Shown: positions 3,342 to 40,818 of the stretch, piece by piece
How the letters are laid out: each line of letters begins with the position of its first letter
Numbering within the stretch: position 1 is the first letter of the stretch
From: an uncultured Chloroflexus sp.
GTDB taxonomy: Bacteria > Chloroflexota > Chloroflexia > Chloroflexales > Chloroflexaceae
Length of the DNA stretch: 40,818 nt
Assembly: GCF_937129525.1 (NCBI RefSeq)
Contig: NZ_CAKZNK010000044.1
Span: 1-40,818, forward strand
Direction of reading: 5' to 3'
Notes under the pieces: model-generated
The model's input: only the letters and a program-made list of their open reading frames with translations
Told to the model about the DNA's origin: nothing
Databases searched by the model: none
Program-made: the position numbers and the translations under genes

Positions 3342-3447
3342 AGCATTATCCTAGCGAGCGGCGCTCAGGATGTCAAGAGTTCAACATCAGACTCTGGAGG
3401 AAATGCCGGTGAAGAAGTGACCAGACAATTGCAAAGGCGCAACTATG

Positions 3448-3485
3448 AGGCGCAAGATTGGTGATGACACGCAAATCTTGCGCCT
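3448..3485 (-). terminator. Perfect 12-bp hairpin after the ferredoxin gene
   Basis: AGGCGCAAGATT (3448-3459) pairs perfectly with AATCTTGCGCCT (3474-3485) around a 14-nt loop. It lies 9 nt past the ferredoxin stop. No long U-tract follows, so terminator function is inferred. Confidence 0.6.
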
Positions 3486-3494
3486 GGCGCCAAT

Positions 3495-3869
3495 CTAACT
3501 GTGGGTAAAGGTCGATCGGGGGTGAGTTGTCGGATCGGGTGTGACGGTTGGCTCAGGAGTGGGGCCGGTATCGCTCCAACCTTGATTTTCGAGCGTCATC
3601 GCCACCTCGGCGATGGTCATATCATGGTTACATACAATTTGACAGGCGAGACGGTATTCACCCAGCAGATTACGCTCTTGGAGCTTTGCATATTCAGCCG
3701 CCGTCATCTCATCTGGCTCGCCAGCGGCAAACTTAACCCGGCAGGTCGTGCAGCGCGCATAACCACCGCAGCGGTGTCCAATCGCGATTCCGGCCTGCTC
3801 GATTGCCAGCACCAGCCTCGTGTTGGCGGCAACCTCAATCGAACGGTCACCAATCGTAACAGTGGGCAT
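3495..3869 (-). CDS. [2Fe-2S] ferredoxin, plant/adrenodoxin-like fold
   Basis: 124 residues. The four cluster ligands are in the canonical arrangement: C34-x5-C40-x2-C43 (CGGYARCTTC) and C76 in RLACQI. The N-terminal beta strands (MPTVTIGDRSIEVAANTRLV) fit the ubiquitin-like ferredoxin fold. After about residue 95 the protein carries a Pro/Thr-rich tail (TGPTPEPTVTPDPTTHP) not needed for the fold and probably disordered. It is a soluble one-electron carrier; the redox partner is not shown by the context. A perfect hairpin follows the stop codon, so this is probably a single-gene transcript. Confidence 0.88.
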   Translation of the reverse strand: MPTVTIGDRSIEVAANTRLVLAIEQAGIAIGHRCGGYARCTTCRVKFAAGEPDEMTAAEYAKLQERNLLGEYRLACQIVCNHDMTIAEVAMTLENQGWSDTGPTPEPTVTPDPTTHPRSTFTHS

Positions 3870-4256
3870 ACTACCTCCACCAGCTTTTCAGAAAACGATA
3901 GTAGTGTATATTCAAACTACCATCAGAACGTGATCACGTCAATCGTTGGCATTGCAGGCGCAAATCGGATTGCGGTGTTGAGGCGATGAGCGAATGGACA
4001 GGCGAAAGCGACGAGGGTAGACAGCCCTTCCGTGGTCTGCGCGATGGCCTGGATCAATCGCAGTGCATGAACTCCGTAGTGAACAAGAGCAGACTCGTCA
4101 GTTGCAACGCTTCGCCGCTTCAAGCCCGGAGATACGTCACCGCCTTGCCTCTTACGCCCGGCCATACGCAGTCGTGGCAAAAGCCGGTCTGCGCGCGTAT
4201 CGGTGAGCTTGAGGCGGCGCTGACCGATCACCGCTGCTCGCGGTCAGGTTATGGCT
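3870..4256. other. 387-bp stretch without a convincing gene
   Basis: Open frames exist on both strands: minus 4231-3923 from a GTG, 102 codons, and plus 3986-4267. Neither has a good ribosome-binding site or a recognisable product. The minus frame has protein-like stretches and follows cheR closely, so a small unrecognised or decayed gene cannot be excluded. A 7-bp inverted repeat, CTGACCG/CGGTCAG, spans 4220-4247 just past the cheR stop and may end the che transcript. The ferredoxin promoter should lie near 3870-3930. Confidence 0.4.
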
Positions 4257-5633
4257 TCAGCGATTGAGCTGCTGAAGCAGGTGATTCAAATACGCGCGCA
4301 GCTCGGCAGCATTGGCGGCGCTATGGCTATCAATGATTTGATCGTCTGGTAGTTGTTCGATCAGTCTGAGCGCTCGCTGTGAAGAGCGACGAGCAGTATC
4401 GGGTTGTTTGAGCCGCGCTGCGACATTTGCCATCCCGACATACCCCATGATGAACTGTGGGTTCAGATAGACGCTACGGCGATAATCGGCCAATGCGGTT
4501 TCAAAGTCACCGTGATGTTCGGCTATCTGGGCCTGGAGGTAGTAAGCCGGAGCAAAGAGCGGGTATGCCTTCAGCAGCGCTCGCAAAATGCTCTCGGCGG
4601 TATTCCAGTCACCCTGGTCGGCGGCAGTTTGGGCCGCGCGCAGGAAATCTTCGGGCGACTCCGCCGGAGCTGTAACTGGGGCTGGCGGCGCGCTGGCGCG
4701 CGATGGGGCGGGCTTTGGCGGAGCAGGCGGCGGTGTTGCCAATGGCGCTGGCGTTGGTTCAAGGGATGATGGCAGCGCTGACGCGGGCGCAAAAGGCGCT
4801 GCCGATAAAGGTTTGCGGTAGAGCACAGTGCCAGGAGCGTTGTGAGTTTCAAACTGGCGGTACAGTTCAACGTTTGGCTCGGCGTGCCCGACCACCAGCC
4901 AGCCGCCAGGAATGAGTGAGTCGTAGAGGCGTTGGACGACCTGACGGGTTGTCGCTTCGTCAAAATAGATCATAACGTTGCGACAAAAGATAATATCGAA
5001 GGCGATGATACCCAATTGCGGCGAGGGGTAGACCGGTTCGACCAGATTGAGCTGAGCGAAGGTCACATCGGCTCGAATCTCGCGTCGCAACTGCCATTGC
5101 CCTCCTACCGGCACAAAGTAGCGGTCGCGCACCTCCGGCGGAGTTTCACGAAACGACCAGTTTCCGAAACAGGCTTCGCGCGCACGGGCGAGAAAATGCC
5201 GGTTGATGTCGGTAGCGAGAATGCTGATCTGCCAGGGCGGATCGGATGGCAATTGCTCGCGGAGGGTGATGGCAATGGAGTAAGGCTCTTCACCGGTAGC
5301 GCAGCCTGCGCTCCAGACGCGCAGATAGCGCACCATGGAACGGCGCTGGATCAGGTCAGGCAGAATGATTTCACGCAGGGCGGCAAATTGGGCTGCGTTG
5401 CGAAAGAAATAAGTTTCGCCAATAGTCAGCTCGGCGATCAATTCATCCCAGGCCGCAGGGTAGCGTTCTATCAGCGAGAAGAGCTTGCAAGGATCGCTAA
5501 TGCCAAAGTGCTGGGCCGCGCGCTGTAATCCATAGATCAGGTCAGCGCGGCGCTGCTCTGGATAGTGCAGGCCAGCGCGCTCGCGGATGAGCGTGGCAAA
5601 GCGGTCATAAAGCTCTTCTGTGATGACATTCAT
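4257..5633 (-). CDS. cheR: CheR-type MCP methyltransferase with C-terminal TPRs
   Basis: S-adenosylmethionine-dependent methylation of glutamates on the chemoreceptor; 458 residues from the ATG at 5633, which has AGGGAG upstream. A start at 5696 would overlap cheB and lacks this site. The N-terminal helical CheR domain (about 1-70) is followed by the methyltransferase domain with VWSAGCATGEEPYSIAI (107-123, SAM site) and FDIIFCRNVMIYFD (212-225). A Pro/Ala-rich linker (about 278-325) leads to two or three TPR-like helical repeats (about 328-440). CheR-TPR fusions are typical of non-flagellar, pilus- or alternative-function chemosensory systems. It is the last gene of the che operon, 34 bp after cheB. 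Confidence 0.92.
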   Translation of the reverse strand: MNVITEELYDRFATLIRERAGLHYPEQRRADLIYGLQRAAQHFGISDPCKLFSLIERYPAAWDELIAELTIGETYFFRNAAQFAALREIILPDLIQRRSMVRYLRVWSAGCATGEEPYSIAITLREQLPSDPPWQISILATDINRHFLARAREACFGNWSFRETPPEVRDRYFVPVGGQWQLRREIRADVTFAQLNLVEPVYPSPQLGIIAFDIIFCRNVMIYFDEATTRQVVQRLYDSLIPGGWLVVGHAEPNVELYRQFETHNAPGTVLYRKPLSAAPFAPASALPSSLEPTPAPLATPPPAPPKPAPSRASAPPAPVTAPAESPEDFLRAAQTAADQGDWNTAESILRALLKAYPLFAPAYYLQAQIAEHHGDFETALADYRRSVYLNPQFIMGYVGMANVAARLKQPDTARRSSQRALRLIEQLPDDQIIDSHSAANAAELRAYLNHLLQQLNR

Positions 5634-6733: not shown

Positions 6734-7210
6734 TCAGGAGTTGATGTGACGATAATCAGAACCGACATGATGAGTATAGACAGTCGTGGTAGTGTTGTCG
6801 AGGTATGCAAGCAACGCCGGGGGATCCAACACCGGAACAATCCCTTCGGGAGTGCGAAAGGAAGCCTTCAGCAGATCAGTGCCAAAGGTGAGTGGCGTAA
6901 TATTGTCAGACGAGATTTGCTGGACGCCATACACCCCATCAACCAGCAATCCCAGTTGAGGCTGGTCGGTATCAATGCTGAGTACCATCACCATGCTCTG
7001 CAAACTGATGCTCAATGGCTGGTCAAGCAGCCGATGCCCGATCAACACCGGGATGAGGGTACCGCGCAGATCGAGCAGGCCAGCAATGATCGGTGGCGCG
7101 CCAGCAATTGGGGTTAGCTCAGGCAACCGCGCGATCTGCTGCACGGCTGTCAGAGGTAGCGCAAAGGTTTGCCGACCAACTTGAAAGGTGACAAAAATGG
7201 AGGTTGTCAT
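6734..7210 (-). CDS. cheW: CheW-like coupling protein (second copy in the operon)
   Basis: 158 residues from the ATG at 7210; a GTG three codons upstream (7219) is equally open. The protein is a single CheW/SH3-like domain: FVTFQVGRQTFALPLTAVQQI at the N-terminus, AGLLDLRGTLIPVLIGHRLL in the middle and GLLVDGVYGVQQI before the C-terminal part. It links the MCP to the CheA kinase at the membrane. The last 20 or so residues (TTTTVYTHHVGSDYRHINS) extend beyond the domain. The operon has two CheW proteins of different length, which could load different receptors or cap different positions of the array. Confidence 0.9.
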   Translation of the reverse strand: MTTSIFVTFQVGRQTFALPLTAVQQIARLPELTPIAGAPPIIAGLLDLRGTLIPVLIGHRLLDQPLSISLQSMVMVLSIDTDQPQLGLLVDGVYGVQQISSDNITPLTFGTDLLKASFRTPEGIVPVLDPPALLAYLDNTTTTVYTHHVGSDYRHINS

Positions 7211-7239
7211 AATACTCACTCGTATCTGAGATTGACGCG

Positions 7240-7608
7240 CTAAACGGTGCGGAATTTCATCGTGACCAGGTGACCTTGTGGCGAAGAAGTGACATTTGTC
7301 TCATCAACGAGGGAAAACGCTGTTTGCACAGGTTCCTGGCGGGCAATGTGCTGGTACGCTTCACGTTCTGACTCACATTCGACAACGAGAGGATGGTGAA
7401 CATCTCTATCATCGCAGTGGATCACGATAGCGCTGGCGTAGCAGTGATGGATCAATGCGCGCGCCACTTCACTGACCGCAGCGGTAATGCGAGCCTGTTG
7501 CGCTGGCGGCAGTTCCATCGCTCGCGCACTCTGACGTAGCGCCTGCCGAAGCTGAATCAGGTCAGCTTCCGTGCTGATGATGAGTTGTTGGGGCGGCACA
7601 TGTTTCAT
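7240..7608 (-). CDS. HATPase/anti-sigma-factor-like small protein, possibly degenerate
   Basis: 122 residues. The segment LIQLRQALRQSARAMELPPAQQARITAAVSEVARALIHH matches the first helices and N-box region of RsbT/RsbW-type ATPases (normally ...AVSELARNI...). The usual N-box Asn is replaced (SEVARALIHH), and no DxGxG ATP-binding box follows: after the N-box come VIHCDDRDVHHPLVVECESE and a C-terminal strand, LVTMKFRTV. It may therefore have lost ATP binding and act as a protein-interaction module. It begins 8 bp after the cheA stop and is co-transcribed with it. A role in connecting the chemosensory array to partner switching is inference, helped by the PAS-STAS gene a few kb upstream. Confidence 0.6.
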   Translation of the reverse strand: MKHVPPQQLIISTEADLIQLRQALRQSARAMELPPAQQARITAAVSEVARALIHHCYASAIVIHCDDRDVHHPLVVECESEREAYQHIARQEPVQTAFSLVDETNVTSSPQGHLVTMKFRTV

Positions 7609-7616
7609 AACGCATC

Positions 7617-9863
7617 TCAGAGTAAACGCTCAATTGTTGCCAGCAGCGCCTGTTGATCAAACGCTCGCTTCACGATGTATGCATCGGCGCCAGCGGCTAG
7701 ACCCCGCTCGCGATCGGTTGGATTATCAAGTGATGTGACCAGGACTACCGGTATAGCGCGGAGATGCGGATCCGAGCGAATCCGCTCGGTCAGCTCAAAA
7801 CCGTTAATGCGTGGCATATCTACATCGCTCAGCACAAGCTGGCACCCTTGCTGATCGCGCAAAGCGCGCAGACGCTCAAGCGCCTCCTGGCCATTGGTGG
7901 CAAGAACAACGTGATACCCCGCCGACTCGAGAATATTCTTTTCAAGGGTGCGAGTGGTAATTGAGTCGTCAACTACCAGGATCGTGGGTGTTCGGCGTGG
8001 CTCGACCGGACGATCAGGGGGTAGCAGATGCTGCGATGAGGTCATTGCGGCGCGCAATAAATCAACCGAATCGAGAATGGGAGCAACACTGCCATCGGCC
8101 AGAATGGCAGCACCACTCACAAATCGCACTCGCTGCAATGGGAGCGGCAGACGATGAACAACCAGCTCTAGTTCCTCGCTGACGGCATCAACCAGGAACG
8201 CGACACGGCGTTCGTTAACGCCGAGCAGAATCGCTGGCGATGGCGTATCCAGGTCAATGGCAGTCGGTGTTTTCAATCCTAGAAGCTGACCGAGCGCAAT
8301 CAAGGGCAAGGGCCGACCTTCGACCAGCAACGCAGTGCGACCTTCCAGCGCGCGGATATGGTCGCGACGAGCCTGAACAATCCGCTGCATGCTATCCAGT
8401 GGCAGCGCAAAGGTGTGCCCGGCAACTTTCACGAGCAGGCCGTGCGAACGTTGCAAGGTCAGCGGCAGGCTGAGATTGAAGGTAGTGCCTTGCCCAGGAG
8501 TGGAGGTGACAGTCACCTGCCCACCCATCCGTTCAACCGTTGTGCGCACAACATCAAGACCGACGCCGCGGCCTGAAAGAGAACTTACGCTAGTCTTGGT
8601 CGAGAAACCGGGCATAAAGATGAGATCAAGCGCCGCATGATCATCAGCGCGATCGGTGTCGCGGGCGCTGACAATGCCGGAAGCAAGCGCCTGCTGCCAG
8701 ATCCGGGCCGGATCGATACCGGCGCCATCATCGCTGACACTCAGGTTCAGTCGATCGGCAGTGGCGCGCGCTGTCAGCTTGATCAAACCTGTTGGCGCTT
8801 TGCCGGCTGCTTCGCGTTCGGCGGGTAATTCGATCCCGTGATCAACGGCGTTGCGCAGCAGATGGAGGCAAATCATCCGCACTTTATCGAGCACTTGCCG
8901 ATCGGCTTCAGCGCCGCCGTCATCGATGACGAATTCAACCTGCTTGCCTGCGCTGCGGGCCAGTTCGCGCACGTGCAGGCGCAACGGGCCAATAATTTCG
9001 GTCAGTGGCGCCATCCGGGTTTGCTGAATCTGCGCCTGCAAGCGCGCGCTAATTGCGGCCAGGCGGTCGTGATCTTCGCGCGCGCGCGTCGCCAGTTGGG
9101 CAACCTTCGTTTGCAGAGTATCAATAAGCTCATTTGCCAGTTCCAGTGTTGTTAGCAGCGCTTGCTGGTCATCGATAACACTGCGCGACGAACCGCGACG
9201 CGAGTCCGTTCGCAGTAGTGGTCGGGCTTTGCGCCAGGCTCGCCGCCAGCGCTCAGTGAGCGGCGCCAGATCGTGTAAATCGCGCGCCAACTGGCGTGAA
9301 CGCAACGTGCAGGTGAGCAATTCACCGGCCTCGTGCATCAGGTGATCAAGCACGCTCACTTCGACGCGAACGCTCATATCAGTGGTTGCGGCGCCGGTTG
9401 TGCTATCGCTGACGGCGCGCGCAGGTGTGGTCGGCGGAACAGTAGTGGCGGGGGCAGGCGATTGAACAATGGCTGACAACTGTGCCAGCATTGCTGCGAA
9501 GGCCGCTTCGTCGGCAATGTTGCCCGGCACGGCCTGATTCATCAACTCGCCGATCAGATCGAGCGATTGGTAGATCACATCGCAGATGTCTGGACTGAGG
9601 GTGAGCTGATTTTGACGCAAGGCGGCAAAAATATTTTCTACCTGATGGGCAAGCTGTTCCACCGTTGCCACGCCGGCGGCGCGCGCGCCACCTTTCAGAC
9701 TATGGGCAGCGCGAAACAGGCGGTCGATCATCTCACGCCGCTGCGGATGATCCGGCTGGCGTTCCAGGTCAAGCAGAATATCGGCAATCGCTTGACGATG
9801 TTCGGCCTGCTCAGCCCGGAAGACGGCCAGCACTTGCGATTGGATGTCGTCAGGAGAGAGCAT
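7617..9863 (-). CDS. cheA: CheA hybrid histidine kinase with C-terminal receiver
   Basis: 748 residues from the ATG at 9863, which has GAGGA upstream; the frame is open to 9884 but that start has no such site. Domains in order: Hpt with phosphoacceptor H54 in RAAHSLKGGARA; a variable Thr/Pro-rich linker (about 140-165); a dimerisation region; HATPase with N-box LLRNAVDHGIELP, G1 VSDDGAGID and FMPGFSTKTSVSSLSGRGVG; a CheW-like domain (SHGLLVKVAGHTFALPLDSM); and a receiver domain at the C-terminus (TILVVDDS, phosphoacceptor in LVLSDVDMP, Lys in YIVKRAF). Only one Hpt is present. The CheA-receiver architecture, without a P2 CheY-docking domain, is usual in pilus/gliding chemosensory systems. It autophosphorylates under MCP control and feeds CheB and CheY-like receivers. 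Confidence 0.95.
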   Translation of the reverse strand: MLSPDDIQSQVLAVFRAEQAEHRQAIADILLDLERQPDHPQRREMIDRLFRAAHSLKGGARAAGVATVEQLAHQVENIFAALRQNQLTLSPDICDVIYQSLDLIGELMNQAVPGNIADEAAFAAMLAQLSAIVQSPAPATTVPPTTPARAVSDSTTGAATTDMSVRVEVSVLDHLMHEAGELLTCTLRSRQLARDLHDLAPLTERWRRAWRKARPLLRTDSRRGSSRSVIDDQQALLTTLELANELIDTLQTKVAQLATRAREDHDRLAAISARLQAQIQQTRMAPLTEIIGPLRLHVRELARSAGKQVEFVIDDGGAEADRQVLDKVRMICLHLLRNAVDHGIELPAEREAAGKAPTGLIKLTARATADRLNLSVSDDGAGIDPARIWQQALASGIVSARDTDRADDHAALDLIFMPGFSTKTSVSSLSGRGVGLDVVRTTVERMGGQVTVTSTPGQGTTFNLSLPLTLQRSHGLLVKVAGHTFALPLDSMQRIVQARRDHIRALEGRTALLVEGRPLPLIALGQLLGLKTPTAIDLDTPSPAILLGVNERRVAFLVDAVSEELELVVHRLPLPLQRVRFVSGAAILADGSVAPILDSVDLLRAAMTSSQHLLPPDRPVEPRRTPTILVVDDSITTRTLEKNILESAGYHVVLATNGQEALERLRALRDQQGCQLVLSDVDMPRINGFELTERIRSDPHLRAIPVVLVTSLDNPTDRERGLAAGADAYIVKRAFDQQALLATIERLL

Positions 9864-9922
9864 AGCATCCTCGCCTCGGCGCAATAGAATTCCTCAAGCA
9901 ATGGCGATAGCCGTTTGCGCTT

Positions 9923-11782
9923 TCAGAGCCGGTAAGAGGCCACTGTCTGCTGCAACTTCTGCGCCAGGATATGCAGGTCTTGGGCGGCGCGTTCAGCCTG
10001 CCGGGTCGAAGCCAGCGCCTGAGTTGTAGCTTGCTGAATGTTCGTCATAGCCTGACCGATCTGCTCCATACCGACCATCTGTTGCTGGGCTGCGGCGGCC
10101 ATCTGGATGTTCGCCTGGGCGCCGCTTTCGACCTCGCTGGCGATGCGATGAATGATCCGTCCGGCCTGCGCGGCCAGGGTAACACCTTGTTCAACCCCTT
10201 TAGCGCCCTCCTCGGTGACCATCACTGCCGCATTGGTGGCCTTCTGAATCTCGGCCAGAATATCGCGCACCTGCTGCGCAGCCGCCTTCGAGCGTTCTGC
10301 CAGCTCGCGCACGTGTTGAGCAACGACAGCGAAGCTGCGTCCTTGCTCGCCTGCTCGCGCCGCTTCGATGGCGGCATTCAGGGCCAGTAAATTGCTCTGA
10401 TCGGCCAGTTCGCTCACGGTGGTCATAATCACGCCGATAGCCTGCGTCTGTTCGGCCAGGCCAAGGATGGTCTGGGCAATTGTCTCGACGCGCGAACGAA
10501 TTTGATTCATGCCATTAATCGTATCCTCAACTGCCTGCGCGCCCTGGCGGGCAATCTCAAGCGCAGTTTGGCTGTCGTTGGCGACCTGGGTGGCCTGTTT
10601 GGCTGTCTGCACTGAGATGGCCTTGACCTCATCAATCGTGGTTGCGGTCTGCGTTAGCGCCGCTGATTGCTCGGCAGCAGACGAGGCCTGTTGCGTGGTA
10701 GCGGCCAAAATCTCGGCGGCGGCGGTGGCAATATCGGCATTGGCGTGCTGAACCTGAGCCGCAATTGCGCGCAAACCTTCGACCATGGTATTCAGTTGCT
10801 GGCCGAGGAGAGCGAGATCGTCGTTATTGTTCGCGACCGGGAGGCGAACGGTGAGATTGCCGCGGGCCACTTCGGCTGCAAACGCACTATAGTCACGCAC
10901 CACCTGTTCGAGATACTCTTTGGCGATTTTGGTGGCACTGGCGGCGCGCAATTCCTCATTGGCGCGTCGTTGTTCTTCCAACTGATTGCGGATGGTGCTG
11001 GCCATCTGGCTGAAAGCGACTGCCAGCCGACCAACTTCATCTTTCCCGTCAGGGAGGTGATAGTGTTCGCTGATCTTGCCGTTTGCCATCTGCATCGCGG
11101 CGCCGGTCACCATCCCCAGCCGTCGATCAATGCTGCCCGCAATAAACAGTGTGAGCAAGGTGCCCAGCGTGATAGCTGCAAATGTGCCGCCAATCAATAC
11201 CATTTGTAGATTACTCGTTGCATTTGCCGACTCCGCCAGCATTTCATCGAGCAGATCCTGTTCGAAACTGACCAGTTGTTTCATCAGGTCGCTAATGCGG
11301 ATGAATCGGTTGCGACCGATCCGGCTGGCCACCATCTGAATCACCTGGTCAATCGAGGCTTCACCGCGGATCACGGCATAGCGCAGCTCAATCAATGGTT
11401 GGGCAGCTTCAGCTTTCCATAATGTCACTTCATCGTCGATTTCGTTAATCAACTGATAACCAATGGTCTGATCTGGAACGATGTCGCGTAACTCGGCCAG
11501 CAGATCGTTGTACTGCTTCTGCCCACTTTCATATTTGTCAAGGAAGGTCGGATCGCCCGTGATCAGAAAGCCGCGCTCGCCCGATTCCATCATGTGCAGG
11601 CTGGCTTCCATCTGATAAGTATGTTGAATCACTGCATATGTTTTTTGCAACTCTTGTTCGCGCTCTTGCGCAGTCTGGAGCGCCTGGAATGCCGCAACTG
11701 CGACGAAGATCATTCCGATCAGGATGAGACTGACAATAAGCAGGATTTTATTGCGCAGACTGATTGAATTGAGGAAGGCCAT
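9923..11782 (-). CDS. Methyl-accepting chemotaxis protein with CHASE3-like sensor
   Basis: 619 residues, membrane receptor. TM1 is at about 13-33. A helical extracytoplasmic sensor of CHASE3 type follows, with the hallmark [22 protein letters not shown]2 is at about 195-217 ([20 protein letters not shown]). A HAMP domain follows, then a long coiled coil with a second HAMP-like segment ([16 protein letters not shown]), and finally the MCP signalling hairpin with the highly conserved tip [20 protein letters not shown]. Gln/Glu-rich methylation helices flank the tip. CheR and CheB in the same operon would modify it. The ligand is unknown. The architecture resembles PilJ-like receptors of pilus-linked systems. 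Confidence 0.93.
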
Positions 11783-35779: not shown

Positions 35780-37966
35780 CTATGCCTGTCGTAGCTCGCG
35801 AAAACCCAACAACCGCATACCGTTGAGCGTCACCAGCAGCGAAGCCCCCACATCGGCCAGCACTGCCATCCACATCGTGCCGAAACCGGCCAGCACTAGC
35901 GCGATGAAGAGCAGCTTGATTCCGATACTGAAAGCGACATTAGCCGCGATGGTGCGCATTGTGGCGCGACTGAGCGCAATTGCAAACGGCAACTGGCGCA
36001 GATCACCGCCCAGCAGGGTGATGTCAGCCGTTTCCATCGCTTGCGTCGTGCCGCCAGCATCCGTCCCAATCGCGATGCCGACATCAGCGCTGGCCAGCGC
36101 CGGCGCATCGTTAATGCCATCGCCGACCATCGCGACAGCGCCATTCGATCGCCGCAAGTCGCTTACTGCCTGCGCTTTGTCTTCCGGCAGCAGACCGGCG
36201 CGCGTGTCATTCACTCCTAGTTCGCCAGCGATCCGTTTGGCGGTTGCCGGATCGTCACCGGTGAGCATAACCACGTGTAATCCTTGCTGGCGAAGGGTGC
36301 TGATCGCGCTGCGACTCTCCGGACGCACCGTGTCGGCTACGGTAATCGTGCCACGATACTCGCCGCCAACACCAACCATCAGCGGCGTGCGGCCAAGCTG
36401 ACTGTCGCGCTGCGCCGCCAGACAGTGCTGCTCGTCGTGACTCAGGGTTTGGTCGAAGACGCGATGGCTGCCAATAAGCACTTCGGCGCCGTTGACAATC
36501 CCTTGTACCCCTTTGCCGACCAGCGCCCGCACCTGTTCGGCGGCAGGCAGGGCCAGCCCTCGTGAGGTGGCGGCGCTGACGATGGCGCGGGCAAGCGGAT
36601 GCTCGGAACGATGCTCGACCGCGCCGGCCAGGACAAGCAGTTCGTCGCAGGCCGGACAGTGTCCGATTGGCGCTTCGGATGCGGCGGTGCATCCTACTGC
36701 GCGCAAACCGACTACCGCTGGCTTGCCGCTGGTAAGCGTGCCGGTTTTGTCTACCGCGACTGTGGTGACCCGCGCCAGCGTCTCGAGATAGGCGCCACCC
36801 TTGATCAAGACCCCATGGCGCGCAGCAGTGCTCAGCGCGCTGACCAGGCTGACCGGAGTGCTGATGACCAGCGCGCACGGACAGGCAACGACCAGTAAGG
36901 CCAGGCCGCGGTAGAACCAGCCAAAGGTGTGTGGATCGGGATTCCAGAAGGGCTGACCGAATACGAGTGGCGGCACAATCGCGATCAGCGCGGCCAGGAT
37001 GACAACCAGCGGGGTGTAGATACGGGCAAACCGATCAACGAATCGTTGCACCGGCGCCCGCCGCTCTTGCGCCTCTTCAACCAGCCGGATCATGCGGGCA
37101 ATCGCGCTCTCGGCAGCCAGACGCTCAACCCTCATCTCGAGACTGCCTTCGCCGTTCATCGTACCGGCGAACAATGGATCGCCAGCGTTGCGTTCAATGA
37201 GCCGACTCTCACCGGTAATTGGCGCCTGATTGACCAGCGAACTCCCGGCAACAACTGTGCCGTCAACCGGGATCCGTTCGCCGGGTCGGATCAGCAGCCG
37301 ATCGCCAATCTGCAATTCGGCTACCGGCACAATTCGCTCACCCTCAGGCAAGAGCACGGTTGCCGTCGGCGGTGTCAATTCCAGCAAACTGCGGATGGCG
37401 TGGCGGGCGCGGCTGGCCGTATAACCTTCCAGCGCCTCGCCAATCGCGTACAACACCATCACCAGACCCGCTTCAACATAGGCGCCGATAATCACCGCGC
37501 CGACAGCGGCGATACTCATCAGCGCATCAATGCTCAGTTCGCGATTTGCGCGCAGCGCGCGCCACGCCTTCAGTGCAATCGGCGGCCCAACCAGGGCCAG
37601 CGCCGCCAGGGCCAGCGCGTCGATCCAGACCGCTTCCCAGCGCAGCAATTCATGGAGCACAGTTCCCGGTAATACCAGGATCAACCCGATCAACGCCAGT
37701 TGTGTTTCGCGTTTGCTTAACATAAAGCGTAACAGGGTTGGCGGTGGTTCGGGCTTCGTTTCGGTAGCCTGCGCGATCTCGTACCCTAGCTCGCGCACAC
37801 GGTTCATCACTACCGTCGGATCCACGTCACCGGTGACGCGCAATCTGGCCGTGGTGAAATTGAGCCTGCACGCGGTCACTCCTTCCAGTCGCGCTACTCC
37901 GCGCTCGATTGCGCGCGCGCATTCAGGGCAATCCATTCCTTCGATGGTAAACTGCTGGTTGTTCAT
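35780..37966 (-). CDS. P1B-type heavy-metal ATPase, Zn/Cd/Co-exporting type
   Basis: 728 residues; GAGGAA is placed 8 nt before the ATG. N-terminal HMA domain with C13-x2-C16 in GMDCPECA. Further on: actuator-domain TGES (about 251-254), metal-path CPC at 362-364 in VVACPCALV, phosphorylated D406 in DKTGTLT, the HP signature at 456-457 in EHRSEHPLAR, and GDGINDAPAL. The C-terminal ADVGASLLVTLNGMRLL is typical of ZntA/CadA exporters. An extra C437-x2-C440 pair in the nucleotide-binding domain (HCPACDEL) is uncommon. It pumps divalent soft metals out of the cell. No ArsR/SmtB or MerR regulator is adjacent. Confidence 0.92.
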   Translation of the reverse strand: MNNQQFTIEGMDCPECARAIERGVARLEGVTACRLNFTTARLRVTGDVDPTVVMNRVRELGYEIAQATETKPEPPPTLLRFMLSKRETQLALIGLILVLPGTVLHELLRWEAVWIDALALAALALVGPPIALKAWRALRANRELSIDALMSIAAVGAVIIGAYVEAGLVMVLYAIGEALEGYTASRARHAIRSLLELTPPTATVLLPEGERIVPVAELQIGDRLLIRPGERIPVDGTVVAGSSLVNQAPITGESRLIERNAGDPLFAGTMNGEGSLEMRVERLAAESAIARMIRLVEEAQERRAPVQRFVDRFARIYTPLVVILAALIAIVPPLVFGQPFWNPDPHTFGWFYRGLALLVVACPCALVISTPVSLVSALSTAARHGVLIKGGAYLETLARVTTVAVDKTGTLTSGKPAVVGLRAVGCTAASEAPIGHCPACDELLVLAGAVEHRSEHPLARAIVSAATSRGLALPAAEQVRALVGKGVQGIVNGAEVLIGSHRVFDQTLSHDEQHCLAAQRDSQLGRTPLMVGVGGEYRGTITVADTVRPESRSAISTLRQQGLHVVMLTGDDPATAKRIAGELGVNDTRAGLLPEDKAQAVSDLRRSNGAVAMVGDGINDAPALASADVGIAIGTDAGGTTQAMETADITLLGGDLRQLPFAIALSRATMRTIAANVAFSIGIKLLFIALVLAGFGTMWMAVLADVGASLLVTLNGMRLLGFRELRQA

Positions 37967-38001
37967 GGTCGTTATTCCTCAGCAGTGCAATAGTGCGATT
38001 G

Positions 38002-38037
38002 TTGACTTCACTCTACTCTATTCATGCGCGAAGTCAA
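38002..38037. promoter_or_regulatory. Long inverted repeat in the P1B-ATPase/PFK divergent promoter
   Basis: TTGACTTC (38002-38009) and GAAGTCAA (38030-38037) are perfect 8-bp inverted repeats 20 bp apart, with GTAGAGT/ACTCTAC repeats overlapping. On the minus strand the TTGACT serves as a -35 with TAGAGT 16 nt on as a possible -10. This is a likely binding site for a metal-responsive regulator of the ATPase. Confidence 0.5.
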
Positions 38038-38175
38038 GAGGGTAGAGTAAAAATGACACTATGTCTTAATTGTAGTCGGAACGTCTTTGCCAGGCGACTC
38101 AAGCCGGCTCGTAAACTCTATGATATACTTGCGCATGCAACCAAGTCACTATCCGCCAGAAAGGCGAGGAAACCG

Positions 38176-40413
38176 ATGAGAGACACAACGATTCGTATCG
38201 GAGTGTTGACCAGCGGCGGCGATGCGCCGGGTATGAATGCGGCAGTGCGCGCAGTGGTACGCACCGGCATCAGCCGTGGCTGTGAAGTATACGCGATCTA
38301 TGAAGGGTATCAGGGCTTGATCCAGGGCGGCAAGTTGATTCGCCGCATGGATTGGAGTTCGGTTGGGGGCATCATCCATCGCGGTGGCACAATTATCGGC
38401 ACGGCGCGTAGCGCTGAGTTTCGCACCCGCGAAGGTCGGCGTCGGGCTGCTGCCAATTTGCTGGCCTACGGCATCGATCGGTTAGTGGTGATCGGCGGCG
38501 ACGGCAGCTTGACCGGCGCCGATCTGTTTCGCCGGGAATGGCCGGAGCTGCTGTCTGAGCTGGTGGAAGCTGGTGAGGTGAGCGAAGATCAAGCCGCAGC
38601 CCACCCCCATCTCCGTATCGCAGGTATCGTCGGCAGCATTGATAATGACTTTTGCGGAACCGATATGACGATCGGCGCCGATACGGCCTTGCATCGGATC
38701 ACCGAAGCGATTGATGCGATCAGCTCTACGGCGGCCAGTCACCAGCGCACGTTTGTGATCGAGGTGATGGGGCGGAATTGTGGGTATCTGGCGCTGATGG
38801 GAGCGATTGCTGGTGGCGCCGATTGGGTGTTCATTCCAGAGATGCCGCCACAGATGGATGATTGGGAGCAGCATATGTGCAATGTGCTGCGCATCGGGCG
38901 TGAGCATGGCCGGCGAGACAGTATTGTTGTGGTGGCTGAGGGGGCGCGTGATCGCAACGGCAATCCGATTACAGCGGGTTATGTGCGGAAGGTGCTCGAA
39001 GAGCGGTTAGGCGAGGATACGCGGGTGACCATCCTTGGTCACGTGCAGCGTGGTGGCGCGCCAAGCGCATTTGATCGCTGGATGAGTTCGTTGTTGGGCG
39101 CAACAGCAGTTGAGGAGTTATTGACTGACAATACCGATGCTGAACCGAAGCTGATCGGTCTGCGTGAGAATCGGGTGGTTCGGTTGCCGTTGATGAATTG
39201 TGTTAGCGATACCCACCAGGTAGCCGAAGCGATTGCCCAACGCGACTATGAGCGGGCGCTGGCGCTACGCGGCAATAGTTTTGTCGAGGCTTACCGCACG
39301 CTCGGCACTCTCATCCAGTCGCAGCCATCGCCACCCGATCAATTGCGCCGTGGTTATCGCTTTGCAGTGATGCATAGCGGCGGGCCGGCGCCGGGCATGA
39401 ATACGGCGGTGCGAGCTGCTGTGCGCATCGGTATCGATCGCGGCCATACGATTCTCGGCGTTCGCAATGGTTTTCAGGGTCTGATCGATGGCGACATCTT
39501 CGAAATGGATTGGATGAGTGTCAGCGGTTGGGCAACGATGGGCGGCGCCGAGCTGGGGACGAATCGCAAAATTCCCCAGGGAAGCGAGCTGTATCAGATT
39601 GCGCGCAACATCGAACGGTTTGGGATAGACGGGATTTTGATGATTGGCGGCTGGGCTGGCTATCAGGCGGCGTATAAGCTTTACAGCGAGCGGTCGATCT
39701 TTCCCGCCTTCAACATTCCGATCATCTGTCTGCCGGCTACAATCGACAACAATTTACCCGGCTCGGAGCTGAGTCTTGGCGCCGATACCGCACTTAACAG
39801 CATCGTGCATGCGATTGACCGCATCAAGCAGTCGGCGGTAGCTTCGCGGCGCTGTTTCATTGTCGAGGTCATGGGGCGTGATTGTGGGTATCTGGCGCTG
39901 ATGAGCGGATTGGCAACGGGAGCTGAGCGGGTCTATTTGCCGGAAGAAGGGATCAGTCTCCGCTCACTGCAAGCCGATCTCGATGAGATGATACACTGGT
40001 TCCGACGCGGCAAGCGATTGAGCCTGATCATCCGCAACGAAAAGGCGAATCCCGTCTACACAACCTCGTTCATCTGCTCGCTATTTGAAGAAGAGGGTGG
40101 CAAACTGTTTGAAGTACGTCAGGCAATCCTCGGTCATTTGCAGCAAGGTGGTGACCCATCGCCCTTCGACCGGATTCAGGCGACCCGGCTGGCCGTGCGT
40201 TGCATTGAGTTCCTGATCGAGCACGCTGATCGGCGTGAGTCGGTCGGCGCGTTTATCGGCTATCGGGGCGGCAAGGTGCAAATCCATCAGCTTGATGATA
40301 TGCCAAGATTGATGGATTCGGTCTACGCCCGGCCACGCGAGCAGTGGTGGATGGCATTGCGACAGATGGCACAGTTGTTGACCACTCCTCCAATGCACCG
40401 TGGTGATGGCTGA
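38176..40413 (+). CDS. pfkA: Double-domain, eukaryote-like 6-phosphofructokinase
   Basis: 745 residues from the ATG at 38176 with GAGGA 5 nt upstream; the open frame runs back to 37993 but that part is promoter. Two full PFK domains are fused. The N-half (about 5-365) has catalytic features intact: GGDGS at 107-111, SIDND at 154-158 (catalytic D156), EVMGRNCGY at 196-204 and GHVQRGG at 288-294. The C-half (about 394-720) has lost them: GGWAG at 491-495 replaces GGDGS, and TIDNN at 522-526 replaces TIDND, but it keeps EVMGRDCGY and GHLQQGGDPSPFDR. This is the layout of animal/fungal PFK, in which the C-half became allosteric. Glycolysis, cytoplasm. It is divergent from the metal ATPase and probably a single-gene transcript. 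Confidence 0.9.
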   Translation: MRDTTIRIGVLTSGGDAPGMNAAVRAVVRTGISRGCEVYAIYEGYQGLIQGGKLIRRMDWSSVGGIIHRGGTIIGTARSAEFRTREGRRRAAANLLAYGIDRLVVIGGDGSLTGADLFRREWPELLSELVEAGEVSEDQAAAHPHLRIAGIVGSIDNDFCGTDMTIGADTALHRITEAIDAISSTAASHQRTFVIEVMGRNCGYLALMGAIAGGADWVFIPEMPPQMDDWEQHMCNVLRIGREHGRRDSIVVVAEGARDRNGNPITAGYVRKVLEERLGEDTRVTILGHVQRGGAPSAFDRWMSSLLGATAVEELLTDNTDAEPKLIGLRENRVVRLPLMNCVSDTHQVAEAIAQRDYERALALRGNSFVEAYRTLGTLIQSQPSPPDQLRRGYRFAVMHSGGPAPGMNTAVRAAVRIGIDRGHTILGVRNGFQGLIDGDIFEMDWMSVSGWATMGGAELGTNRKIPQGSELYQIARNIERFGIDGILMIGGWAGYQAAYKLYSERSIFPAFNIPIICLPATIDNNLPGSELSLGADTALNSIVHAIDRIKQSAVASRRCFIVEVMGRDCGYLALMSGLATGAERVYLPEEGISLRSLQADLDEMIHWFRRGKRLSLIIRNEKANPVYTTSFICSLFEEEGGKLFEVRQAILGHLQQGGDPSPFDRIQATRLAVRCIEFLIEHADRRESVGAFIGYRGGKVQIHQLDDMPRLMDSVYARPREQWWMALRQMAQLLTTPPMHRGDG

Positions 40414-40472
40414 GCGTGAATGGCGTCACAGTCAGGCAGAAGCGGGTGCGTTGAGGAAAGCGGCAGTCTTTT

Positions 40473-40818
40473 CGGATTGAGCGAGCGGCGCGCGGGTTGA
40501 GGGTGGGTGCTGGTAGGTGAGGATTGCGCTCCGGCTGACTGGGCCGAAAACCGGTTGCGCGCGATCGTATCTGGTGGGCAAAGAAGCTATGAAACGCTCC
40601 AAACTGGCTGCGCGCAGCACAGATGGGTTACGCGGATTCAACTGCGGATTGAGCGAGCGGCGCGCGGGTTGAGGGTGGGTGCTGGTAGGTGAGGATTGCG
40701 CTCCGGCTGACTGGGCCGAAAACCGGTTGCGCGCGATCGTATCTGGTGGGCAAAGAAGCTATGAAACGCTCCAAACTGGCTGCGCGCAGCACAGATGGGT
40801 TACGCGGATTCAACTGCG
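40473..40818. repeat. 172-bp exact tandem direct repeat, at least two copies, running off the window
   Basis: The unit at 40473-40644 is repeated without visible change at 40645-40816, and the last two bases, CG, match the start of a third unit. The unit begins CGGATTGAGCGAGCGG and ends GCGGATTCAACTG. The length is not a multiple of three, so it is not a protein repeat in one frame. A short minus-strand frame starting MNPRNPSVLRAA occurs in each copy but is probably not real. The 59 bp between pfkA and the repeat hold nothing recognisable. Confidence 0.92.

Follow-up and report, generated by a model that had tools for sequence, protein, structure and literature searches.

The window analysed here, a stretch of 40,818 nucleotides from an uncultured Chloroflexus sp. 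(assembly GCF_937129525.1, contig NZ_CAKZNK010000044.1, positions 1 to 40,818 of the forward strand), carries at 38176-40413 on the forward strand a gene for a two-domain 6-phosphofructokinase (PFK) of the eukaryotic type, as recognized from its frame and translation, from the TIGR02478 and Pfam profiles, and by phmmer. The gene is a single open frame of 745 aa from an ATG at 38176 to a stop codon at 40413; an in-frame GTG upstream would extend it to 806 aa, and a Shine-Dalgarno-like GGCGAGG (38163-38169), read from the sequence as a putative ribosome-binding site, is situated 6 bases 5' of the ATG. The standard example of a regulated glycolytic enzyme is phosphofructokinase-1, and the regulation exerted through its C-terminal (C) half is explained by gene duplication in eukaryotes. 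The sequence comparisons summarized below indicate that the gene quite probably encodes a eukaryotic-type (6PF1K_euk) ATP-dependent PFK whose two halves were fused once, in bacteria, before the animal and fungal copies split off.

Two PFK domains are present in the protein. The Pfam PFK profile matched two stretches of the 745 residues with 694.5 bits in all, and the NCBI equivalog model TIGR02478 (6PF1K_euk) covered residues 7-736 in one stretch with 1030.5 bits, against a cut-off of 708.4. The bacterial PfkA model TIGR02482 was also exceeded by the whole protein (570.5 bits; cut-off 371.35) and by each half alone, yet its single-domain layout of about 300-330 residues is not that of this protein. 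In a phmmer comparison with the chains of solved structures, human and rabbit PFKM scored 771 and 769 bits, each over residues 8-736 in one stretch, and yeast PFK1 scored 697 bits; no bacterial single-domain PFK exceeded 264 bits. The N-terminal (N) half shares 60% identity with the N half of rabbit muscle PFK and 47% with the best-scoring of 16 single-domain PFKs; the C half is 42% identical to the rabbit C half, and the two halves of the window protein are 35.5% identical to each other. An AlphaFold2 model of the single chain, built with 38 window and locus sequences, reached a predicted local distance difference test score (pLDDT) of 91.6 and a predicted TM-score (pTM) of 0.91, and it matches human and yeast PFK along its whole length. 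The nearest solved structure found by Foldseek was human liver PFK in the R state (E 5.4e-87), and VIA-align superposed the model on the human liver enzyme (8w2g_A) with a Z of 49.8 and 1.3 A over 730 residues at 50% identity, human platelet PFK being tied with it. The fusion of two PFK domains and the likeness to animal and fungal PFK, both put forward in the original prediction from the letters alone, are thus borne out by the profiles, the phmmer scores and the model.

The N half (residues 1-381, 38176-39318), assigned as the catalytic PFK domain by Pfam and by the match of model residues 5-381 to single-domain PFKs, retains a complete active site when its residues are numbered by E. coli PFK through an E. 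coli-like relative. The ATP site comprises G15, R78 and, within the ATP/Mg loop GGDGS (residues 107-111, 38494-38508), D109, G110 and S111. The catalytic region holds S154, D156 and D158 in the motif SIDND (residues 154-158, 38635-38649), where D156 would be the catalytic base and D158 the Mg-binding aspartate by homology. The fructose 6-phosphate (F6P) site is complete as well, consisting of R191, R200, E255, R283, H289 and R292; EVMGRNCGY occupies residues 196-204, and GHVQRGG (residues 288-294, 39037-39057) aligns H289 with H249 and R292 with R252 of E. coli. A linker of about ten residues (about 382-391, 39319-39348), placed by the structural domain ranges, probably joins this half to the C half (residues 392-745, 39349-40410), a second PFK domain without the ATP loop, to which homology would assign a regulatory role. 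In the C half GGWAG (residues 491-495, 39646-39660) replaces GGDGS, so that W493, A494 and G495 stand where D103, G104 and S105 stood, and TIDNN (residues 522-526, 39739-39753) keeps D524 and has N526 in place of D129, the second aspartate. The sugar-phosphate pocket is kept in EVMGRDCGY (residues 564-572, 39865-39891), including R568, which is glycine in all five eukaryotic rows. Further residues of this site, R559, E622, R648 and H654, are also retained, the last in GHLQQGG (residues 653-659, 40132-40152), where the R252 equivalent has become Q657. The D156 and D524 numbering given earlier for the two halves was correct, and so was the description of a catalytic N half paired with a C half that lacks the ATP/Mg motif; the accompanying claim that the C half keeps its effector and substrate motifs applies to EVMGRDCGY, and GHLQQGG is not fully kept since glutamine replaces R252.

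The same asymmetry was found throughout a residue-count set of 62 fused proteins, which includes five eukaryotic sequences, 12 bacterial proteins of a deep-branching clade (the deep clade, described below) and 45 other bacterial proteins including that of the window. The N-half equivalents of D103, G104, D127 and D129 are invariant in 62 of 62, and an aspartate at the C-half D103 position occurs in none. At the C-half R252 position arginine is present in 12/12 deep proteins, Gln, Glu, Thr or Leu in 45/45 other bacterial proteins, and Gln in 5/5 eukaryotic ones; two relatives, L154 and L156, keep IDND in the C half. From its complete set of active-site residues, the N half would phosphorylate F6P with ATP. 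The C half is a duplicated copy of the domain from which the ATP loop of PFK is gone. It may act in regulation, sensing sugar phosphates and serving as a structural partner, a role suggested because the same fold and pocket are found in animal and yeast PFK.

Compared with known systems, the window protein resembles animal phosphofructokinase-1 (rabbit PFKM, human PFKL and PFKP) in whole-length homology, in fold (Z 47.6-49.8), in the division into a catalytic N half and a C half without the ATP loop, and in the C-half glutamine at the R252 position (rabbit row). It differs in having D524 for Ser530 and R568 for glycine, in the lack of a 6PF2K match over the cut-off in its genome, and in the absence of a long C-terminal tail, only nine residues following aligned residue 736. 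The two-domain core is likewise shared with PFK1 and PFK2 of Saccharomyces cerevisiae and Komagataella pastoris (46% identity to S. cerevisiae PFK1), whereas the N-terminal glyoxalase-like domain and the two-gene subunit system of the yeasts, as described in the accessible text of a review (PMC12203962), are missing. Bacterial PfkA of E. coli and Geobacillus stearothermophilus has the same domain fold and the catalytic residues of the window N half, but consists of one domain of about 320 residues. The closest published case is Cagg_2702 of Chloroflexus aggregans, a 747-aa 6PF1K_euk protein; as far as the available portion of the report goes, the likeness lies in length class, family and the possession of a 356-aa single-domain partner, and its authors noted homologues in many Chloroflexota (PMC8004040). 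The existence of the enzyme in Chloroflexus and other Chloroflexota is therefore already in print, and the enzyme is named by an existing NCBI model, TIGR02478. To the accessible part of that report the present analysis adds five further phyla, Cyanobacteriota by a single genome. The word stem "Chloroflex" does not occur in the main text, as available, of the 2025 review of the superfamily (PMC12203962). In the open literature searched, mostly at listing level, nothing was found that places the origin of the fused PFK in bacteria, and a shared fusion, a multi-phylum spread and nested eukaryotes were likewise not found in the papers open to searching.

The fused PFK is common among the Chloroflexota relatives and sporadic in other phyla. 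The list of phyla comes from a contig scan of which the best 80 of 593 stretches were followed, and is thus a lower bound. Within Chloroflexota, 42 of 400 genomes carry a fused PFK over the TIGR02478 cut-off. The same family contributes 22 of these (23 genomes listed), the other families of the order 8 (17 listed), the remainder of the class 1 (14 listed) and other parts of the phylum 11 (13 match-free genomes of the phylum, being unlisted, are left out of these kinship fractions). For the other five phyla, each named after its named centre genome and counted with that fused centre genome included, the numbers are 15/296 (Actinomycetota), 1/219 (Pseudomonadota), 10/297 in the phylum of a "Deltaproteobacteria" metagenome-assembled genome (MAG), with one more protein, L180, below the cut-off, 3/199 in the phylum of an Aminicenantes MAG, and 1/194 (Cyanobacteriota), where the single genome could represent a culture contaminant. 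Holders among the matches listed, all with confirmed fused frames, include Arsenicicoccus bolidensis, Mycolicibacterium agri, Schaalia cardiffensis, Actinomyces oris, Candidatus Accumulibacter meliphilus, Candidatus Contendobacter and Planktothricoides. Acquisition of a pfkA homologue by Accumulibacter from Competibacteraceae is described in the available part of a published study (PMC11131965); in our 87-row tree Accumulibacter likewise grouped with Competibacteraceae, and the two genes may be the same. Among viral contigs, 16 loci gave matches of at most 948 bases, none of double length.

The question of a common fusion was addressed with trees in which the halves were separated. In a tree of 87 rows (34 fused proteins split into halves, and 19 single-domain PFKs), all N halves of bacteria and eukaryotes formed one clade with support 100/97 and all C halves another with 100/100. 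A 76-row tree with a larger deep clade, from which L180, L037, L155, L016, L134 and L181 were omitted, gave 99/97 for the N halves and 100/100 for the C halves. Since N halves cluster with N halves and C halves with C halves, whether they come from bacteria, rabbit or yeasts, one fusion is shared among these organisms. Grouping of the halves with ordinary single-domain bacterial PFKs had been named beforehand as the refuting outcome for the original prediction; the halves instead joined the N and C halves of the eukaryotic enzymes. Of the two alternatives raised there, that the protein may inform on how the fused enzyme arose was upheld, and that it may be an independent case is excluded by the halves trees.

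The first branches among the fused proteins are bacterial. They comprise L045 and L153 (Chloroflexota), L048 (the "Deltaproteobacteria" MAG) and five of L170-L178, nine further proteins from the phylum of that MAG, of which five entered the trees. The 12 deep proteins include eight placed by trees and four (L171, L174, L175 and L178) assigned by phylum, score and motif; those scored on TIGR02478 gave 784-837 bits. The eukaryotic sequences group with the main bacteria, leaving the deep clade outside, with support of 100/98 (N) and 100/96 (C) in the 87-row tree, 100/97 and 100/95 in the tree including L180, and 100/95 and 100/98 in the 76-row tree. Both concatenated trees gave 100/99; the pruned one omitted L180, L044, L048, L153, L037, L134, L181 and five outgroup rows. 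All trees, one of them weakly, nest the eukaryotes among the bacterial fused proteins.

This placement was compared by approximately unbiased (AU) tests with an alternative in which all bacterial fused proteins, a group defined apart from the trees, form one clade. Bacterial monophyly was rejected in five of seven tests: with the 87-row set (p 0.0073 for N and 0.0083 for C), with the concatenated halves (p 0.00057), with the pruned concatenated set under another alignment (p 0.000044), and with N halves and the single-domain outgroup only (p 0.0031). Whether the eukaryotes are sister to the main bacteria or lie within them was not separated (p 0.377, concatenated). Individual sites point the same way. 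Changes shared by eukaryotes and main bacteria where the deep clade keeps the outgroup residue were counted at 3 strict and 10 relaxed sites, compared with 0 and 0 for deep plus main bacteria against eukaryotes, and 0 strict and 2 relaxed for deep plus eukaryotes against main bacteria. In this site-count set the R252 position holds arginine in 16/16 single-domain rows, 35/35 N halves and 8/8 deep C halves, glutamine in the C halves of 5/5 eukaryotes, and Gln, Glu or Leu in those of 22/22 main bacteria.

On these grounds the tandem fusion would have taken place once in bacteria and been followed by transfer to an ancestor of eukaryotes; a single bacterial fusion implies that the bacterial, animal and fungal enzymes descend from one fused ancestor. 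It appears rather more probable than otherwise that the conversion of the C half to regulation was bacterial too and that the ancestors of animals and fungi received a finished enzyme, with the deep clade (L045, L048, L153 and L170-L178) as the intermediate, in which the C half has already lost the ATP loop and still carries the F6P-binding arginine of single-domain enzymes. Several results weigh against this account. A tree restricted to N halves and single-domain rows shows the same arrangement with support of just 30/23 on the branch uniting eukaryotes and main bacteria, the eukaryotes themselves having 55/83. When the deep clade was enlarged, bacterial monophyly was not rejected for N halves (p 0.159) or for C halves (p 0.284), and the 87-row trees and their AU tests contain only three deep rows. 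The site-count groups were taken from the trees; the eukaryotic sequences are only five, from rabbit, S. cerevisiae and K. pastoris; and each single-domain outgroup row was used twice in the concatenated trees, which may overstate confidence. In the tree including L180, moreover, the N half of this protein falls beside the C halves, its C half having an end branch of 3.49. By pairwise score its N half is closest to other N halves; L180 is absent from the later trees and from the residue counts, and the partial L047 and L051 never entered.

Four other explanations have to be weighed. A fusion in early eukaryotes, with bacteria obtaining the gene by horizontal transfer, would agree with the review that, in its accessible text, derives the longer eukaryotic genes from duplication and fusion (PMC12203962), and with the patchy occurrence outside Chloroflexota (Actinomycetota, Pseudomonadota and Cyanobacteriota above). 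Two AU tests leave bacterial monophyly unrejected, the nesting is weak in one tree, and a two-step route from bacteria to a eukaryote and from there to the main bacterial group also fits the tree. We nevertheless consider this direction unlikely, because bacterial proteins form the deepest branch of the fused enzymes in the trees without L180, those of halves as well as the concatenated ones (weakly in the N-half-only tree), the C half of the deep clade carries ancestral residues, and the simple eukaryote-to-bacteria form is rejected by the five AU tests. In favour of a convergent origin, in which two bacterial PFK genes fused independently of eukaryotes or recently in this lineage, it may be said that separate single-domain PFK genes adjoin the fused ones in relatives L034, L037, L047 and L051. 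The joining of the halves to eukaryotic halves at 99/97 to 100/100 makes a local or convergent origin of the window protein very unlikely, and this candidate was ruled out on the halves trees; the higher identity of the N half to rabbit than to the best-scoring single-domain PFK, the 35.5% identity between the two halves, and the presence of the fused gene in nearly all listed genomes of the family add to its extreme improbability.

A reading that gives the C half an active site of its own, making the protein a double catalyst instead of a catalytic and a regulatory half, could draw on D524, R559, R568, E622, R648 and H654, which are still those of an active F6P site, and on the IDND of L154 and L156. 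With GGWAG in place of the ATP/Mg loop, the aspartate of that loop missing in all 62 fused proteins, and N526 in place of the Mg-binding aspartate, it is hardly credible. The last explanation concerns physiology and is compatible with the bacterial origin favoured here. The genome (157 contigs, 99.97% complete) has a second PFK, an ordinary single-domain protein of 356 aa on contig 17, which might carry the glycolytic flux and leave the fused enzyme to a special condition; we hold this to be possible, though somewhat less probable than not. Against this, the phosphoryl donor of the single-domain enzyme is in doubt, as it has GGEGT and a lysine before TIDND; a lysine in that place goes with the use of pyrophosphate. 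In C. aggregans, according to the available part of the transcript study, the fused homologue reached 9.28 transcripts per million and the single-domain gene 1312; the authors put forward the hypothesis that this far more transcribed gene is the glycolytic one (PMC8004040). On this low value the fused PFK may not be the main glycolytic PFK, a point to be set against the main explanation above. The same partly available source reports, on the other side, that the diel pattern of the fused gene matches that of the remaining glycolysis genes (PMC8004040). In the single-contig genome of the same order that holds L190, rhamnose-type genes flank the fused gene, which speaks for a special role.

If the double enzyme is indeed of bacterial origin, the duplication account of PFK regulation must be placed earlier and in a different domain of life, and the bacterial enzymes can serve as present-day comparisons for asking what effectors acted on the C half ahead of fructose 2,6-bisphosphate. 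With proteins of Chloroflexus and related non-pathogenic bacteria this question is directly measurable. The gene itself is of a known type, and the evolutionary reading is the part worth following.

Residues of the C half bear on its possible ligands. Of the positions of the ADP/phosphoenolpyruvate (PEP) effector site of bacterial PFK, R21, R25, E187 and K213 are kept in the window C half as R413, R417, E584 and K613. In the C halves of the 22 main bacteria R21, R25 and E187 are each present in 22/22, and the K213 position is Lys in 17 and Arg in 5; the five eukaryotic rows have R21 in three, R25 in one, Glu at E187 in none, and Lys or Arg at K213 in four. From these four residues, a retained bacterial-type response of the C half to ADP or PEP has about an even chance. 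That the C-half pocket responds to F6P, fructose 1,6-bisphosphate or a similar sugar phosphate has a similarly even chance. The two named sugar phosphates are favoured as ligand because the window's own genome gave no match over the cut-off to 6PF2K (PF01591), the fructose-2,6-bisphosphate synthase, and because D524 occupies the position of rabbit Ser530, a residue reportedly linked to fructose 2,6-bisphosphate by mutagenesis. At this position the 57 bacterial fused proteins have Asp (30), Asn (24), Ser (2) or Thr (1). No 6PF2K over the cut-off was found in 41 family genomes, nor in 10 genomes from other loci, of which nine have a fused PFK; weak matches below the cut-off in two of the 41 and one of the 10 count on the opposite side. 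As a positive control, strong 6PF2K matches of 123-149 bits were obtained in 10 of 99 genomes of another phylum, that of G406 (L187, L188), so the search can recognize the family where it occurs; G406, G958, G992 and G994, the four genomes of these 99 that carry a fused PFK, had no 6PF2K at E 1e-5. In a human structure, as given in the accessible text of the review, fructose 1,6-bisphosphate occupies the F regulatory sites (PMC12203962).

Eukaryotic contamination was considered as a source of the gene and rejected: it reads as a single frame without interruption, its neighbours on the 40.8-kb contig are of bacterial type, and a fused gene recurs in three single-contig genomes of the same genus (G110, G126 and G230). 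A heavy-metal P-type ATPase gene (TIGR01525, 604.7 bits) at 35780-37966 on the reverse strand diverges from the PFK gene, and in G110 an unscanned 728-aa frame beside the PFK gene (L189 4999-7185) has the length and strand of this ATPase. No glycolytic operon was seen around the fused gene of G110, where the frame list was read and one frame scanned. A consensus scan of 37900-40500 in the window revealed neither a promoter-like site on the strand of the gene nor a terminator-like site.

Several minor observations were made at related loci. L180 (G992:C57:26518-28557) is a 797-aa open frame of a fused PFK that scored 447 bits on TIGR02478, below the cut-off; its C half is much decayed, and the protein ends in a cysteine-rich zinc-ribbon-like tail, perhaps marking a further divergent regulatory half. 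The single-domain PFK-like genes adjoining the fused genes of L034, L037, L047 and L051 (Caldilineae/Anaerolineae MAGs and a Chloroflexales MAG) are on the same strand as these, and the fused gene is cut short in L047 and L051. Two Bacteroidota contigs, L056 and L093, each have two single-domain PFK genes near each other on the same strand. In L190 the fused PFK gene (6779-9004) stands between a rhamnulokinase-like gene (3345-4802) and an alpha-L-rhamnosidase-like gene (8935-11700), both matches being below the curated cut-offs of their models; this neighbourhood hints at a role with other sugars. At the end of the window contig, directly after the PFK gene, 40473-40816 consists of two perfect head-to-tail copies of a 172-bp unit, and the assembly therefore probably broke within a longer tandem array.

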